Of a stretch of 64,000 bases of DNA, positions 52,810 through 61,027 are shown piece after piece. The first letter of the stretch is position 1; every line of letters begins with the position of its first letter. This stretch comes from Enhydrobacter sp. (GTDB lineage Bacteria; Pseudomonadota; Alphaproteobacteria; Reyranellales; Reyranellaceae): the NCBI GenBank assembly GCA_025808875.1, contig CP075528.1, positions 1,054,001 through 1,118,000 of the forward strand. Direction: 5' to 3'. Position numbers and translations under genes: made by a program. A model generated the notes under the pieces. It was not told the origin of the DNA. It saw only the letters and a list, made by a program, of their open reading frames with translations, and ran no database searches.

Positions 52810-53392
52810 GCGGGCTGCACGGCAGGGGCGGCCGAGCAAGGCTTGCATACGCCGTCCTAGTCGTTTGTTGGCGAGACGATGCCATAGAGCGCCTCTCGAC
52901 TAGACGTGAGCAGCCCACATCGAAGCCCGCCGGGAACACAAGCCAATCGGCGAAGCTGCTCCTCAACTCCACAATGGTGGATCCCTGAGACGTCTTTCGT
53001 CTACGCGGCCGGGCGACGATCCCACTTTCGTCCGCCGGACGCCGATACGGAATGTTGCGCTAAACGTGCCGGTCCATTGGGGAAGGCGACGGGTCGAGCC
53101 ACGTTCTCCTCGATACACCTCTGTCTGATCGAGCACTCCAAGCGGCCTCTTCGATGGGCTGATCTGGCCGAAGGCCGGCTGCGCCTCGACCGCCTATGCC
53201 GCAATGGCGCCGATCGACTTTCTTCCCCTGCCGGCTTCGCCGGCATTCCTCGCGAAACAACAAAGTCGCCTGGCTGCCATCCTCCGCTGCGCTTCGGCCT
53301 GCAAGCAGGTGCGGCGCCGATCGCCTCCGGCCAACCGATCGCCATCGAGGCCGCATGGTGCGGGCTCGAAACAGAGATCAAGGAGAACTACC
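52810..53392 (+). other. Long non-coding region before DUF736 gene 1
   Basis: About 580 bases without a convincing gene. The left 380 bases show nothing recognisable. The right 190 bases hold a family II structured leader and continue in parallel with the leader of the DUF2493 gene (CGCTGCGCT, GCCATCGAGGCCGCATGG) up to AAGGAG before the ATG. Confidence 0.6.
53215..53268 (+). ncRNA. Leader element family II, copy B (before DUF736 gene 1)
   Basis: CGACTTTCTT (53215-53224) pairs with AACAAAGTCG (53259-53268) at 9 of 10 positions. Inside is a perfect 7-bp hairpin TGCCGGC-ttc-GCCGGCA (53229-53245), then the unpaired CGCGAAAC before the closing arm. Hairpin size, triloop size and the CGCGAAACAA element match copy A, while most paired bases differ. 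Confidence 0.6.
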
Positions 53393-53716
53393 ATGGCGAC
53401 CATCGGCACCTTCAAGAAGACCGGCAACGAGTTCAGCGGCCAAATCGTCACCCTCAGTGTCCAGGCGAAGAACGTCCGCATCGTTCCCGAGGCCAACCGC
53501 TCCGGCGAGAACGCCCCCAGCCACCGCGTCTTCGTGGGCCGCGTCGAGATCGGCGCCGCCTGGGCCAAGCGCTCCAACGAGGGCCGCGATTATCTGGGCC
53601 TCAAGCTCGACGACCCGAGCTTTACCGCCCCGATCTACGCCAACCTCTTCGACGACGAGGACGGCGAGGGCTACAGCCTGATTTGGTCTCGTCCCAACGG
53701 CCGCCGCGCCGACTAA
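53393..53716 (+). CDS. DUF736 protein, copy 1
   Basis: 107 residues. ATIGTFKKTGNEFSGQIVTL, APSHRVFVGRVEIGAAWAKR and YLGLKLDDPSFTAPIYANLF are the DUF736 signature. Every member of this small family I know is on mobile elements or next to conjugation genes; the fold suggests an OB-like beta barrel that might bind nucleic acid. A second, diverged copy lies at 57943. AAGGAG precedes the start. Confidence 0.9.
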   Translation: MATIGTFKKTGNEFSGQIVTLSVQAKNVRIVPEANRSGENAPSHRVFVGRVEIGAAWAKRSNEGRDYLGLKLDDPSFTAPIYANLFDDEDGEGYSLIWSRPNGRRAD

Positions 53717-53937: not shown

Positions 53938-54165
53938 TCATGTTTCAGTGACTTCCACCGTCTCATCGAGGAGGTCGGCGGGTTTCACGTTCAACGCTTC
54001 CGCCAAATGCCACATCGTCAACAGCGTGACATTTTGCTGGCCCCGCTCCATGCCGCTCACATAGGCGCGGTCCACACCCATTTTCACGGCGACCGCTTCC
54101 TGGCTCAGACCGGCAGCGACGCGATACCTCCTGACGTTGGCTCCAAAGATTCTGCGAATGTCCAT
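53938..54165 (-). CDS. XRE-family regulator, QseC-like
   Basis: 75 residues from ATG 54165; a TTG at 54183 in frame is less likely. FGANVRRYRVAAGLSQEAVA and VKMGVDRAYVSGMERGQQNV form a complete helix-turn-helix, with a short C-terminal helix. It is divergent from a DUF2285 gene, the arrangement of qseC/qseM in ICEMlSym(R7A), where QseC binds operators between the two genes and sets whether the antiactivator QseM is made. The homology is by size, fold and position; I cannot test sequence identity. Confidence 0.82.
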   Translation of the reverse strand: MDIRRIFGANVRRYRVAAGLSQEAVAVKMGVDRAYVSGMERGQQNVTLLTMWHLAEALNVKPADLLDETVEVTET

Positions 54166-54185
54166 CCGCAGGATAGGAGACAATA

Positions 54186-54339: not shown

Positions 54340-54615
54340 ATGGACGCGCCGATGATCACGATGGACTTCCTGGATCGTCCGCCCGAGAGCAACCGTCTCA
54401 CGGCTTACGATGAAAGCCATCTCGCCGCCTACATCCGGTTGCTGGACGCCGACGCGGAAGGGGCCGATTGGCGTGAGGCGGTGCAAATCATCTTCGGATT
54501 CGACCCCGACGATGACCCCGACCGCGCTCGCGTTATTCATCAAAGCCATCTCGCCCGCGCCCGCTGGATGACCACGACGGGCTATCGCGAGCTCCTCCGT
54601 CCCCGCGTGTCCTAG
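54340..54615 (+). CDS. DUF2285 domain protein, QseM-like antiactivator
   Basis: 91 residues from ATG 54340; ATGs at 54352 and 54361 are possible. The core RLTAYDESHLAAYIRLLDAD, WREAVQIIFGFDPDDDPDRA and SHLARARWMTTTGYRELL is a single DUF2285 domain. In ICEMlSym(R7A) the small DUF2285 protein QseM blocks both TraR and FseA and so keeps the element silent. Its place between a divergent xre gene and the fseA-like gene is the same here. No AHL synthase or TraR-type gene is seen in the window. Confidence 0.8.
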   Translation: MDAPMITMDFLDRPPESNRLTAYDESHLAAYIRLLDADAEGADWREAVQIIFGFDPDDDPDRARVIHQSHLARARWMTTTGYRELLRPRVS

Positions 54616-54741: not shown

Positions 54742-54969
54742 ATGGCCGAGCCGCCGGATTGGCGATTGCAGACAACCGAACGCGCGCTGAACCGCTTGGA
54801 ACGGCAAGGGTTCGCGTGGGAGTTTCTGCGCCGCAATCCCGACTATCGCAGCGACTATGACCGCCTGCGCGGCACCCCGGCCAGCCGCGAGAGCGCTTCA
54901 TTGCCGCATAGGAGCGCCACCCCGCAATGGGGGTTGCGCTTTCCTGCTCGATCCCGACCGCTCCGCTAG
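54742..54969 (+). CDS. fseA: FseA-like activator, N-terminal frame (DUF6499)
   Basis: 75 codons in frame 1: PDWRLQTTERALNRLERQGF, then AWEFLRRNPDYRSDYDRLRG and PQWGLRF, a DUF6499 domain. The frame stops at 54969 just after leaving the conserved sequence. The matching DUF2285 domain continues in the +1 frame. In ICEMlSym(R7A) the corresponding genes (msi172/msi171) are joined by programmed +1 ribosomal frameshifting into FseA, the activator of rdfS and excision. Here a fused product would have about 259 residues. Confidence 0.82.
   Translation: MAEPPDWRLQTTERALNRLERQGFAWEFLRRNPDYRSDYDRLRGTPASRESASLPHRSATPQWGLRFPARSRPLR
54940..54946 (+). other. Putative +1 ribosomal frameshift site in fseA
   Basis: The conserved reading WGLRF ends with TTT at 54940-54942 followed by C. 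Slipping one base lets tRNA-Phe re-pair on TTC (54941-54943), after which frame 2 reads LLDPDRSASETAIFWRPE, as expected for the intact family. The exact slip codon is inferred from the join of conserved sequence, not proven. Confidence 0.6.
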
Positions 54970-55522
54970 CGAGACCGCGATCTTCTGGCGGCCAGAGCTT
55001 GTCGCCAGCGTCTTGCTGATTGAACCAGCGCCGGCCGTCTTTCTCGCCGCCAAGCGACTCGACCAGCTCGACCTAACTCACGCCACACTGCACGCGCAAC
55101 CCGGAGGCGAAGGTGCGATCATTTTAGCCGATCCCGACGGCGATCATCATTTGGTCGTCGGCGCCATCGACCCGGCTCAACCGCTCGCCGTTCTGCTGCC
55201 GCTCGACGACAACTTCCACATCCGCGCCGAAGCGGCATTGCGATTCCAACGCCGCCTATTTGGACGCGCCCCCGGTCCGCTACCGCGCGCGCTCACGCTC
55301 ACACCGCGCCGCCGCCTGCGGCTGGTGCGCATGGTGCGTGCGCTCGATGGCCGATCCGCAGGCGCGACTTATCGCGAAATCGCCGGCGTGCTTTTCGACA
55401 CGCCGCGGCAGTCCGCCACCGAATGGAAAACGTCGTCCATCCGCGCCCAGACAATCCGTTTGGTCAAGGATGCCGAGACGATGGTGCGCGGCGGCTATCT
55501 CCGCTTGCTGGCCGGCCGCTGA
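54944..55522 (+). CDS. fseA: FseA-like activator, C-terminal frame (DUF2285)
   Basis: Frame 2, translated after the proposed slip: DPDRSASETAIFWRPELVAS, then a beta-rich middle and a C-terminal DUF2285 domain with RLRLVRMVRALDGRSAGATY, REIAGVLF and RLVKDAETMVRGGYLRLLAG. The frame is open back to 54857, where an ATG exists without a good ribosome-binding site. On its own it would be a DUF2285 protein; joined to the first frame it is FseA. rdfS lies 153 bases downstream, as expected for its main target. Confidence 0.82.
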   Translation: MLDPDRSASETAIFWRPELVASVLLIEPAPAVFLAAKRLDQLDLTHATLHAQPGGEGAIILADPDGDHHLVVGAIDPAQPLAVLLPLDDNFHIRAEAALRFQRRLFGRAPGPLPRALTLTPRRRLRLVRMVRALDGRSAGATYREIAGVLFDTPRQSATEWKTSSIRAQTIRLVKDAETMVRGGYLRLLAGR

Positions 55523-55675
55523 CTCCCTGCGGTCCCCATCGAACGAGGGGCACAAGGGGGGTACGCGCACAGAGGGGTCTCACTCCGTCATCCACCCTGA
55601 CGCCGGTGGTTCGCCATCGTGGTCGCCGCTTCGCCACTGCACGCCGGCGGGGCAGCCGATCCACCGGAGGCCCCA

Positions 55676-55966
55676 ATGTCAGCAGCGCGACTCGACCCCC
55701 CGCCACGCTATCTCCGCACATCCGAGGCGGCGCGCTTCCTCGGCCTATCCGGTCGCACGCTGGAGAAGCACCGCACCTACGGCACGGGACCGGTCTATCG
55801 CAAGCTCGGCGGACGCATTGTCTATGCCCTCGACGATCTTCAGGCTTGGGCGGATCGCGGCACACGGCAGTCGACATCAGATCCGGGCCACGGTGTTGTC
55901 CACCCTGCAAAACGACAGGCGACGCCCGCCGGGGGAATGCCCGTGCGACGCGGCGGCGCGTCATGA
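55676..55966 (+). CDS. rdfS: Excisionase / recombination directionality factor, AlpA-like (RdfS)
   Basis: 96 residues from ATG 55676 behind GGAGG. RYLRTSEAARFLGLSGRTLE and KLGGRIVYALDDLQAWADRG make the winged HTH of AlpA/RdfS-type factors; the last 30 residues are basic and probably flexible. RdfS binds near att and turns the integrase towards excision. It is translationally coupled (ATGA) to parA downstream and lies just after fseA. Confidence 0.87.
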   Translation: MSAARLDPPPRYLRTSEAARFLGLSGRTLEKHRTYGTGPVYRKLGGRIVYALDDLQAWADRGTRQSTSDPGHGVVHPAKRQATPAGGMPVRRGGAS

Positions 55967-56601
55967 TCGTCGCGCTCCTCAATCAGAAGGGTGGCGTCGG
56001 CAAGACGATGCTCACGCTGCATGTCGCCGGCGAATGGGCGAGCAAGGGAAGGCGCGTCCTACTCATTGACGCGGACCCACAGGGCTCCGCGCTCGATTGG
56101 TCCCAGCAGCGGGCACGCGAAGGCCTGCCGCGACTCTTCGGTGTCATCGGCCTGGCGCGGGATACGCTTCACAGCGAAGCGCCGGAGCTGGCGCGAGACG
56201 CCGATCATGTGGTGATCGACGGGCCACCGCGCGTCGCCAGCCTGATGCGGTCCGCGCTGCTTGCCGCCGACCTGGTACTGATCCCCGTGCAGCCATCGCC
56301 TTTCGATGGCTGGGCGTCCGCGGAGATGCTCTCGCTGCTGGGCGAGGCGCGGATCTACCGCCCCCAGCTCGCCGCCCGCTTCGTGCTGAATCGCTGCGGA
56401 GCGCGAACCGTCATCGCGCGCGAGACGGCCGAGACGCTCGCCGATCACGATCCGCCGGTACTCACCAGCACCGTCGGCCAGCGCGTCACCTTCGCCGACG
56501 CGGCACGCTCCGGCCGCCTGGTCTCCGAGATCAACGAACGCAGCCCCGCTGCGCGCGAGATCACCGCACTCTGCACTGAGGTCGGGAGGATCGCACCATG
56601 A
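55963..56601 (+). CDS. parA: ParA-like ATPase
   Basis: 212 residues. IVALLNQKGGVGKTMLTLHV is the deviant Walker A, LLIDADPQGSALDW the A' motif, and DHVVIDGPPRVASL the Walker B. The small size and lack of an N-terminal HTH are those of ICE/plasmid type Ib ParA proteins. It may position or stabilise the excised circle. It sits in a chain of ATGA overlaps (rdfS-parA-RHH-DUF2840-traF), so all are made from one transcript. Confidence 0.9.
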   Translation: MIVALLNQKGGVGKTMLTLHVAGEWASKGRRVLLIDADPQGSALDWSQQRAREGLPRLFGVIGLARDTLHSEAPELARDADHVVIDGPPRVASLMRSALLAADLVLIPVQPSPFDGWASAEMLSLLGEARIYRPQLAARFVLNRCGARTVIARETAETLADHDPPVLTSTVGQRVTFADAARSGRLVSEINERSPAAREITALCTEVGRIAP

Positions 56602-56852
56602 CGGAGCGGCCCCACAAACGCGCCTTCACTGCACGTCCAGCCGATCCAGAGAGCTGGGTGAAAGCCCCCAATCCGCGGCACCCGCGCGGCGGCGACACCG
56701 CCACCTTCACCGCGCGCCTCACCATCGACGTCACGCCCGACATGCGTGGCCAGATCAAGATCGCCGCGTTTCAGCGTGGGGTCACCGTCGCCGACATGCT
56801 GCGCGAGCTACTCGCCCGCGAGTTTCCCCCAACCGATGGAGCAACGCCATGA
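56598..56852 (+). CDS. Small ribbon-helix-helix-like partner of ParA
   Basis: 84 residues, coupled by ATGA on both sides. TATFTARLTIDVTPDMRGQI then KIAAFQRGVTVADMLRELLA is a ribbon-helix-helix pattern; the N-terminal 35 residues are basic and Pro-rich. It probably acts as the DNA-binding partner of the ParA-like ATPase, like small plasmid centromere-binding proteins. This is inferred from order and fold. Confidence 0.8.
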   Translation: MTERPHKRAFTARPADPESWVKAPNPRHPRGGDTATFTARLTIDVTPDMRGQIKIAAFQRGVTVADMLRELLAREFPPTDGATP

Positions 56853-57355
56853 ACGGCGCAGCCGACTTGCGTCGCGCCGCGACGCCGAACGTCGCCGGCC
56901 TGACCCATGTCGAGCTGACCTGGATCGAGAAAAGGATCGAATATTGGATCCGGTTCGGACAGGAGGTCCACGAACAGATTCTCGACCGCCGCCGGCGCGT
57001 CGTCAGCTTCCCGCCCCACAGCGTTTTCGCGCTTGTCCGCTGGGCGTCCAACGACTTCGGAACGGTCCTCTCGCGCATCGACATCGTGCGCGCGGTTTCG
57101 CCGGGCGAACCCTATCAGACGTTGCCCTTCGTGCGCCCCGGCGGCGACATTCTGCTGAAGGCCGAGAGCTGGCGACACGTCGAGCGCGTCCTGCAGATCG
57201 TCGACGCGATCGAGTCCAGCGGCATCAATCCCGCCGAGGTCTCGCCGCACCATTGGCGCCACGTTCATAACCGGCTCGTCGCCGGCCAGGAACCGCGCAA
57301 CTACACCGCGCAGCAGCACCGGGCCATCCTCTTGCGCCGAAGGGTCGAGCCATGA
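56849..57355 (+). CDS. DUF2840 protein
   Basis: 168 residues. LTHVELTWIEKRIEYWIRFG, VFALVRWASNDFGTVLSRID and SGINPAEVSPHHWRHVHNRL are typical of DUF2840, a family nearly confined to this ICE class and always between parA and traF. Its function is unknown. Both ends overlap neighbours by 4 bases. Confidence 0.88.
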   Translation: MNGAADLRRAATPNVAGLTHVELTWIEKRIEYWIRFGQEVHEQILDRRRRVVSFPPHSVFALVRWASNDFGTVLSRIDIVRAVSPGEPYQTLPFVRPGGDILLKAESWRHVERVLQIVDAIESSGINPAEVSPHHWRHVHNRLVAGQEPRNYTAQQHRAILLRRRVEP

Positions 57356-57897
57356 CCCGCTTCGGCTACGTCATCACGACGTACTTCACCGTGATGCTGA
57401 TCGGTGGCCTGTCCTTCATCCACATCACGCCCCGGCTGATCTGGAACGCGTCCGCCAGCACGCCGATCGGACTCTATTCGCTCGACCGGTCGCCACGCCT
57501 TCAAGTGACTGACCTCGTCGCCGTGGACGCCCCTGAGCCGCTCGCATCGTTCCTCGCCGAGCGTGGCTACGTGCCGCGCGGCGTCCCCCTCATGAAACGC
57601 GTCGCCGCCCTTCCCGGCCAGCAGGTCTGCCGCACCGGCGCACACGTCACCGTCGATGGCGTCGCGATGGGTGAAGCGCTGACGCGCGACCGTCTCGGCC
57701 GCCATCTGCCCGTCTGGCAGGGCTGCCGGCGCATCGCCGACGGCGAGATCTTCCTCATGAACTGGTCCGTCGAGGACAGCCTCGACGGGCGCTACTTCGG
57801 TCCGATTTCCACCCGCTCGATCATCGGCCGCGCAACGCCTGTGTGGACCGATGAAGACGGCGGCGGCCGCTTCCAATGGCGCGCCGCGACGCGGTGA
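57352..57897 (+). CDS. traF: TraF-like S26 family signal peptidase
   Basis: 181 residues. An N-terminal membrane segment (YFTVMLIGGLSFIHITPRLI) leads into NASASTPIGLYSLD, with the catalytic Ser in the S-x-P-x-G-x-Y motif. PLMKRVAALPGQQVC has the general-base Lys, and GRYFGPISTRSIIGRATPVW the conserved end. TraF proteins process and cyclise the TrbC-type pilin in conjugation. Coupled to DUF2840 by ATGA. Confidence 0.93.
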   Translation: MTRFGYVITTYFTVMLIGGLSFIHITPRLIWNASASTPIGLYSLDRSPRLQVTDLVAVDAPEPLASFLAERGYVPRGVPLMKRVAALPGQQVCRTGAHVTVDGVAMGEALTRDRLGRHLPVWQGCRRIADGEIFLMNWSVEDSLDGRYFGPISTRSIIGRATPVWTDEDGGGRFQWRAATR

Positions 57898-57942: not shown

Positions 57943-58278
57943 ATGCCGCAGATCGGCGAATTCACCCGCACGAAGAACGGCTACGCCGGCCACATCCGCA
58001 CGCTCTCGCTCGACGCCGAAATCGTGCTCGTCCCCGCCGAGCACACCGACGCTGAGAACGCGCCGGACTACCGTGTTCACCACGGCAGCGATGACGGCCC
58101 CGAGATCGGCGCCGGATGGAAACGCACCGGTGAGAAAGCCGGCGACTACGTCTCCCTGCAGATCGACGATCCCACCTTGGCCCAGCCAATCCGCGCCAAT
58201 CTGTTCCAATCGGCCGAAGACAAATCCGCCTGGAATCTGCACTGGAACCGCCCGCCCAAGCGCGGCGAGCGGGACTGA
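57943..58278 (+). CDS. DUF736 protein, copy 2
   Basis: 111 residues. PQIGEFTRTKNGYAGHIRTL, YRVHHGSDDGPEIGAGWKRT and YVSLQIDDPTLAQPIRANLF align with copy 1 at 53393 along the whole length. AAGGAG precedes the start. It lies between the pilin peptidase and lytic transglycosylase genes, the standard place in this ICE class. Confidence 0.92.
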   Translation: MPQIGEFTRTKNGYAGHIRTLSLDAEIVLVPAEHTDAENAPDYRVHHGSDDGPEIGAGWKRTGEKAGDYVSLQIDDPTLAQPIRANLFQSAEDKSAWNLHWNRPPKRGERD

Positions 58279-59172: not shown

Positions 59173-59287
59173 CTTTTTCAATGGCTTACGCTGCGAATTC
59201 GCGAGGTGCGCCTGTTCGGCGCAGCCTGCGGCTCCGGCGATTTCATAAGCAAATCAGCGCTATCGCGCGATGTGCGGTCTTGCCGCC

Positions 59288-61027
59288 ATGAGCGACGACA
59301 ACGATTTCCGCGTCCGGCCAGGCCGCATCCGATCGACCAGCGCGCAGCGCGCGAGGCCGTTCATCGCCCAAGCCTTGGCCGCCGCCCAGCGCGCCGGCGG
59401 CTCGGTCTCCCGCAAGGGGACGATCGGCCCGAACCACCGCTCCCGGTTCGGCCGGGGCCAGCGCGCATCAGTGCAGGCCAATCGGTTCATCACGTCCCGC
59501 TCGCGCGGCGCCGTCGTCAAGGCGCGTGTCGTCCGTCACGGCGGACGGAGCGCGCCGCTCGCGACCCACCTGAACTATCTGGGCCGCGAGGGCGTCACCC
59601 GGGACGGAGAGAAGGCCCGGCTGTTCGGGCCTGGCGCCGATGACGCTGATCCGAAGGCGTTCGCGGAACGGTGCGAGGATGACCGGCATCATTTCCGGTT
59701 CATCGTCTCGCCGGACGACGCCGTGGAGATGTCAGACCTCAAGACCTTCGCCCGCGATTTGGTCGGCCAGATGGAGAAGGACCTCGGCACCAAGCTCGAA
59801 TGGGTCGCCGTCGATCACTGGAATACCGAACATCCGCACGTCCATTTAATTGTGCGTGGCGTGCGCGAGGATGGCGAAAACCTCGTCATCTCCCGCGACT
59901 ATATCAAGGAAGGCATGCGTGATCGGGCGCGGGATCTGATCACGCAGGAATTGGGGCCGCGCACGGATCACGAGATCCGTCGCACCCTGGAACGTCAGAT
60001 CGACACCGAGCGCTGGACCAACCTCGATCGGCAGCTCGCACGCGACGGCTATCGCACCGGCGTCATCGACCTCGCGCCACATCCCAACCGCCAGCCCGAC
60101 GAATTTCATGCGCTCAAGGTCGGGCGCCTTCGCAAACTGGAATCGCTCGGGCTTGCCGACCAGGTCGGCCCCGGCCAGTGGACTGTTTCCGAAAATGCCG
60201 AGACGACGCTGCGCGAGCTCGGCGAACGCGGCGACATCATCAAGCGCATCCATCGCGGCCTTTCAGAACACAGCATCGAACGCGGCGCGTCCAACTATGT
60301 GCTCGCCGGGGAAAGTCTGGACGATCCTGTGGTCGGCCGGCTGGTCGCCCGCGGTCTCGACGATGAGCTGAAGGGTACAGCCTATGCCGTGGTCGACGGC
60401 ATGGACGGCCGCACCCATCACATCAAGCTGCCCGATCTCGACGCCGCCGGCGATAGCGCGCCCGGCTCAATCGTCGAGCTGCGCAGGTTCGACGACGCGA
60501 AGGGGCAGCGTCGCGTCGCGATGGCGGTCCGATCAGACCTCACCATCGAGCAGCAGATCACCGCGACCGGCGCCACTTGGCTTGATCGACAGGCGATCGC
60601 CCGCGAGCCGGTTGCGCTCGGTGGCGGGGGCTTCGGCGCGGAGGTGCGCGACGCCCTGGACCGGCGCGCCGAACACCTGATTGGGCGAGGTCTGGCCGAA
60701 CGTCAGAACCGCGGCGTCAGCTTCAGCCGCAACCTGATCGAGACGCTCCGCCGGCGCGAGTTGGACGCCGTGGGCGCCAAGATCGCGGCAGAGAGCGGCC
60801 GCCCATTCAATAAGGCCGCGGCGGGGGAATACGTCGCTGGCGCCTACCAGCGGCGCATCGCGCTCGCCTCCGGCCGCTTCGCGATGATCGATGACGGCCT
60901 CGGCTTCCAGCTCGTGCCCTGGTCGCCCTCACTCGAAAAGAAACTCGGCCGGCATGTCTCCGGTCTCGCGCGCAGCGATGGCGGCATCGACTGGAGCTTC
61001 GGCCGCAAGCGGAGGCTGGGCCTGTGA
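59288..61027 (+). CDS. rlxS: Relaxase RlxS (DUF3363/VirD2-like)
   Basis: 579 residues from ATG 59288; an ATG at 59270 adds six residues and is possible. Near residue 95, ATHLNYLGREGVTRDG holds the candidate catalytic Tyr. EWVAVDHWNTEHPHVHLIVR near 183 is the three-His metal motif (H-x-H). The DUF3363 domain follows from about 250 to the C-terminus. It nicks oriT and pilots the T-strand. The candidate oriT is immediately upstream, as in the related symbiosis-island ICE. Confidence 0.93.
   Translation: MSDDNDFRVRPGRIRSTSAQRARPFIAQALAAAQRAGGSVSRKGTIGPNHRSRFGRGQRASVQANRFITSRSRGAVVKARVVRHGGRSAPLATHLNYLGREGVTRDGEKARLFGPGADDADPKAFAERCEDDRHHFRFIVSPDDAVEMSDLKTFARDLVGQMEKDLGTKLEWVAVDHWNTEHPHVHLIVRGVREDGENLVISRDYIKEGMRDRARDLITQELGPRTDHEIRRTLERQIDTERWTNLDRQLARDGYRTGVIDLAPHPNRQPDEFHALKVGRLRKLESLGLADQVGPGQWTVSENAETTLRELGERGDIIKRIHRGLSEHSIERGASNYVLAGESLDDPVVGRLVARGLDDELKGTAYAVVDGMDGRTHHIKLPDLDAAGDSAPGSIVELRRFDDAKGQRRVAMAVRSDLTIEQQITATGATWLDRQAIAREPVALGGGGFGAEVRDALDRRAEHLIGRGLAERQNRGVSFSRNLIETLRRRELDAVGAKIAAESGRPFNKAAAGEYVAGAYQRRIALASGRFAMIDDGLGFQLVPWSPSLEKKLGRHVSGLARSDGGIDWSFGRKRRLGL

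Follow-up and report, generated by a model that had tools for sequence, protein, structure and literature searches.

The window, a 64,000-nucleotide stretch of DNA, contains a copy of fseA that had been unannotated as such until now and that is split across two overlapping reading frames (Table 1). On its sequence, the gene is a well-supported fseA with the published +1 programmed frameshift arrangement; the family member is new and the mechanism is known. We consider it very likely that this is the fseA of a conjugative element, in which a minority +1 slip at a UUU codon would yield a 259-residue activator that acts on the promoter of an rdfS-like gene and is blocked by a qseM-like protein. 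We propose the slip, its promoter target and the block by the qseM-like protein by analogy with ICEMlSymR7A.

Table 1. Features of the fseA locus and its surroundings, in window coordinates.
Feature	Coordinates	Strand	Support
qseC-like divergent HTH_3 (XRE-type) regulator	53938..54183	-	HTH_3 E 4.6e-15
qseM-like antiactivator (predicted), lone acidic DUF2285, pI 4.8, without DUF6499	54340..54615	+	PDB 7uqt QseM E 5.9e-21
Frame-0 ORF, DUF6499 (msi172-like)	54742..54969	+	PF20109 E 1.8e-19
Extended recoding signal TGG GGG TTG CGC TTT CCT, SD-like GGGGGU	54928..54945	+	GGG and TTG preferred over their synonyms in the split family
+1 slip site UUU-C; zero-frame A-site codon CCU	54940..54943	+	Conserved in homologues; frame switch maps here
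+1-frame continuation, middle domain and DUF2285 (msi171-like)	54944..55522	+	PF10074 RovC_DNA-bd E 2e-37
Candidate regulatory element 5' of the rdfS-like gene, with TTCGCCA occurring twice in direct orientation, 20 bp apart	55610..55636	+	Weak
rdfS-like small HTH_17 protein, expected FseA target	55676..55966	+	HTH_17 E 2.2e-8
ParA partition ATPase	55963..56601	+	NF041546 E 3.6e-79
DUF2840 protein	56849..57355	+	
S26 peptidase, TraF-like	57352..57897	+	
Relaxase with DUF3363 (RlxS-like)	59270..61027	+	

An earlier note had placed a DUF6499 domain in frame 1 and a DUF2285 domain in the +1 frame, with TTT-C at 54940-54943 between them, and both the reading of the ORFs and the Pfam matches agree with that placement. 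The frame-0 protein begins at ATG 54742 and runs from MAEPPDWR to QWGLRF, followed by the tail PARSRPLR and a TAG at 54967-54969, while the open stretch of the +1 frame starts at 54791 and reaches its stop at 55520-55522. The slip site, TTT at 54940-54942 with C at 54943, lies where the DUF6499 domain ends, within the overlap of the two frames. Joining the frames at TTT and skipping C 54943 gives one FseA-like protein of 259 aa without an internal stop, which continues after the join as ...F|LLDPDRSASETAIFWRPE...; the AWEFLRRN motif is present in its N-terminal DUF6499, and its C-terminal helix-extended-turn-helix DUF2285 is basic (pI 11.8).

This two-frame architecture is conserved. We surveyed 177 loci, taken from the window's own genome and its relatives, more widely from the class and the phylum, and from named genome contigs as well as plasmids. 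A DUF6499 match was present in 158 rows, of which 117 were called split (+1), 31 were fused in one frame, 9 yielded no second domain and 1 had it in the other frame; these counts are approximate and include a few artefact or damaged rows, such as a spurious second match in L001, L158 and the degenerate L058. All 117 split rows shifted by +1, with an in-frame UUU-C in 106 and UUU-U in 5. As TTT makes up only 25% of the Phe codons in the surveyed genes, finding TTT followed by C or T at the slip place in 111 of 117 rows is beyond chance. The earlier note had proposed aligning homologues, and the alignment bears out the conservation of both the split and TTT-C: all near relatives of the window copy have the split, at the same UUU-C. 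Homologues fused in one frame by one base fewer or more, which that note had named as evidence that would count against a frameshift, are the relevant check: fused homologues do exist in our set (24 to 31), nearly all with another codon at the slip place and mostly on other branches.

All three fseA copies in the window's own genome are split. One of the two further copies (L003, G000:C1:557189-557936) has its own qseM-like and rdfS-like neighbours, the other lies at G000:C1:3837021-3837774 (L002), and together with the window copy they mark several related elements in one chromosome. Another split fseA lies at about 1330-2070 of L176, the Agrobacterium tumefaciens K224 plasmid pAtK224b, where the plasmid table gives no gene. 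At a further locus (L065, in G712) UUU-C is kept and the second domain lies in the other frame, as in a damaged gene or an assembly error.

Substitutions in the window gene and seven near relatives (eight sequences) place the change of reading frame at the slip site. Upstream of it, most substitutions fell at frame-0 third positions (47/64 and 68/135), whereas downstream most fell at +1-frame third positions (156/265 and 143/221), and the maximum-likelihood switch point lay at +1 to +8 nt relative to the slip codon. A switch of pattern at this place points to one protein made by a shift there, and speaks against decay. The zero-frame tail past the slip, in turn, is not a conserved product: depending on the locus, it measures between 6 and 711 nt.

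The locus could instead encode separate genes whose products associate, with DUF2285 translated from its own start inside the first ORF, possibly through translational coupling. A +1-frame ATG does exist at 54857, and the Azorhizobium homologues have been treated as separate genes, each with start and stop codons (PMC9601964). That ATG, however, lies inside the DUF6499 coding part, whereas the +1-frame substitution pattern begins only at the slip site. Several homologues have a +1 open stretch that overlaps the 3' end of the DUF6499 match by just 11-17 nt, into which a separate start would hardly fit; no start codon is conserved at the join, and both domains occur in one chain in the fused homologues and in RovC. 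We therefore regard separate genes as improbable. The short T run at the join might alternatively suggest that transcriptional slippage, rather than ribosomal frameshifting, makes the full protein. Polymerase slippage is generally known from longer runs than three T residues, which counts against this explanation, as does the constraint on the upstream codons and UUU-Y; we give it almost no weight, the least of any alternative.

A decayed fseA with a one-base indel, or a sequencing error, would also produce a gene split in this way, and transitions between split and fused genes have indeed occurred in the family. A quick tree was built from 94 proteins, 70 of them split and 24 fused; on it the split/fused label changed about 12 times, at least 6 of these forced by supported branches, against 21.7 changes with shuffled labels. 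The states are therefore clustered; the split was gained or lost several times, in a direction that the tree does not give, and one fused homologue (L105) branches near the genome's other two fseA copies. A few loci (L065, L027) also look damaged. Against this, the split arrangement is common to all close relatives, to the genome's other two copies and to a contig from a separately deposited MAG; the last is identical to the window locus over 1,400 nt, which makes a sequencing error at the join unlikely. Moreover, constraint acts on frame 0 before the join and on the +1 frame after it, and the 259 codons hold no other stop or shift. Decay or error is thus very improbable, and we retain programmed +1 frameshifting as the preferred reading.

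Constraint extends upstream of the slip codon. The split family favours the context TGG GGG TTG CGA TTT C, and we counted codons in one representative from each of 67 clusters at 65% identity. The Gly codon before the slip was GGG in 47/67 (background 0.146, P 1e-24), the Leu codon TTG in 30/59 (background 0.115, P 1e-13) and the Arg codon CGA in 24/28 (background 0.097, P 6e-21). These P values overstate independence, as common descent still links the clusters. Fused homologues had no clear excess of GGG at the matching place (6/25). Over the five codons before the slip, predicted pairing with the 16S tail averaged -8.2 kcal/mol, compared with -6.0 kcal/mol for synonymous versions (P 9e-10); the window reached -9.6 kcal/mol and an E. 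coli prfB-like segment, from a hand-entered sequence, -10.7 kcal/mol. The synonymous codons upstream of the slip are thus strongly constrained, in a pattern resembling an internal Shine-Dalgarno, and to judge from this constraint the slip is probably aided by the SD-like GGGGGU together with the preference for TTG and CGA. RNA structure downstream of the slip did not exceed that of shuffles (z 0.34 and -0.15), and we know of no claim that such structure is required.

The slip codon itself varies. In the UUU-U loci (L021, L025, L039, L049, L078) the next zero-frame codon, in the A site, is always UGY. UUU-C is absent from a homologous clade of the window's own genus (G014, G036, G783, G012 and, as a more distant member, G779). 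Four of these read GGG TTA CTT CTA or CTT CTT, a CUU-C join (loci L017, with the slip near 1689, L018, L026 and L179) that might let tRNA-Leu shift from CUU to UUC; the P-site codon is that of prfB. Two loci (L040 and L182, the latter in G779) have UGU-C at the join with the upstream motif mostly kept, and may be slip-dead or use another mechanism. It is an even call, in our judgement, whether the signal is larger than the UUU-C tetramer, such that an SD-like GGGGGU at a fixed distance and UUG and CGA codons would set the shift rate, the slip codon could be swapped (for UUU-U or CUU-C), and elements would adjust how often they transfer through evolution of this signal.

Under the frameshifting model, most ribosomes on 54742-54969 would stop at the TAG and release a short DUF6499 protein. 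In a minority, tRNA-Phe in the P site on UUU 54940-54942 would slip one base forward to UUC, and the slipped ribosomes would continue in the +1 frame to make the 259-residue DUF6499-DUF2285 activator. In R7A, such tRNA-Phe slippage from UUU to UUC was reportedly indicated by mass spectrometry and mutations (the 2015 PNAS study of Ramsay et al.). FseA would then activate the adjacent downstream rdfS-like promoter, leading to excision and transfer, while the upstream qseM-like protein, as a DUF2285 decoy, would bind the DUF6499 part of FseA and block the activator.

The surrounding genes fit this setting. Those downstream (rdfS-like HTH, ParA, S26 peptidase, relaxase) are a conjugative-element backbone, and ribbon-helix-helix-like, DUF736 and lytic transglycosylase (SLT) genes also lie downstream of fseA. 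DUF736 genes flank the regulatory module on both sides (53288-53716 and 57943-58278). Plasmid relatives have the same order, DUF2285 / DUF6499 / DUF2285 / HTH. Upstream of the rdfS-like gene we recognised no inverted-repeat FseA box of the R7A type; the direct TTCGCCA words found there, which differ from the R7A inverted repeat, are kept in several close relatives. A search for sigma-70 promoters and terminators found none. The own genome held no LuxR/TraR-type autoinducer-binding domain (PF03472), with a positive E. coli control, and upstream control must therefore differ from that in R7A; a quorum-sensing input like that of R7A is unsupported here. A search for the AHL-synthase family also gave no match, but its controls were silent too.

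These results bring three well-supported fseA copies, all in one genome, into a family whose frameshift makes annotation pipelines overlook it, and provide a codon-level map around the slip site that is testable by single synonymous changes. The +1 mechanism of fseA is published, with about 61% of 4,709 homologues needing the shift (PMC10359603), and fseA +1 programmed frameshifting is also covered in PMC5009743 and PMC5882170. The window gene shares with FseA (msi172-msi171) of ICEMlSymR7A, from Mesorhizobium japonicum R7A, DUF6499 in frame 0, DUF2285 in the +1 frame and a conserved +1 PRF site, and both elements also carry an antiactivator gene of the qseM type and genes of the rdfS-traF-rlxS type. 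The earlier note's claim of the same gene order as R7A holds for the presence of the qseM-like, fseA-like and rdfS-like genes but not for their contiguity: these are contiguous in the window, without a TraR-type domain or a recognised R7A-type FseA box, whereas in R7A fseA sits within the traI2-msi172-msi171-qseM-qseC operon and rdfS heads a separate one (PMC5882170).

Among solved structures, the best relative of the joined protein is the Yersinia transcriptional activator RovC (PDB 6xz5), which aligned with residues 22-86, across the join at 67, and 195-256; it has the same two-domain architecture, but is encoded in one frame and has another regulatory target. The ORF at 54340-54615 is, like QseM (PDB 7uqt), an acidic lone DUF2285, and its antiactivation here is predicted. 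The likeness to prfB (RF2) lies in the +1 slip and an SD-like GGGGGU upstream, although in the window the A site holds a sense codon rather than a stop, GGGGG ends 6 nt before the slip codon rather than 3, and the protein family is another.
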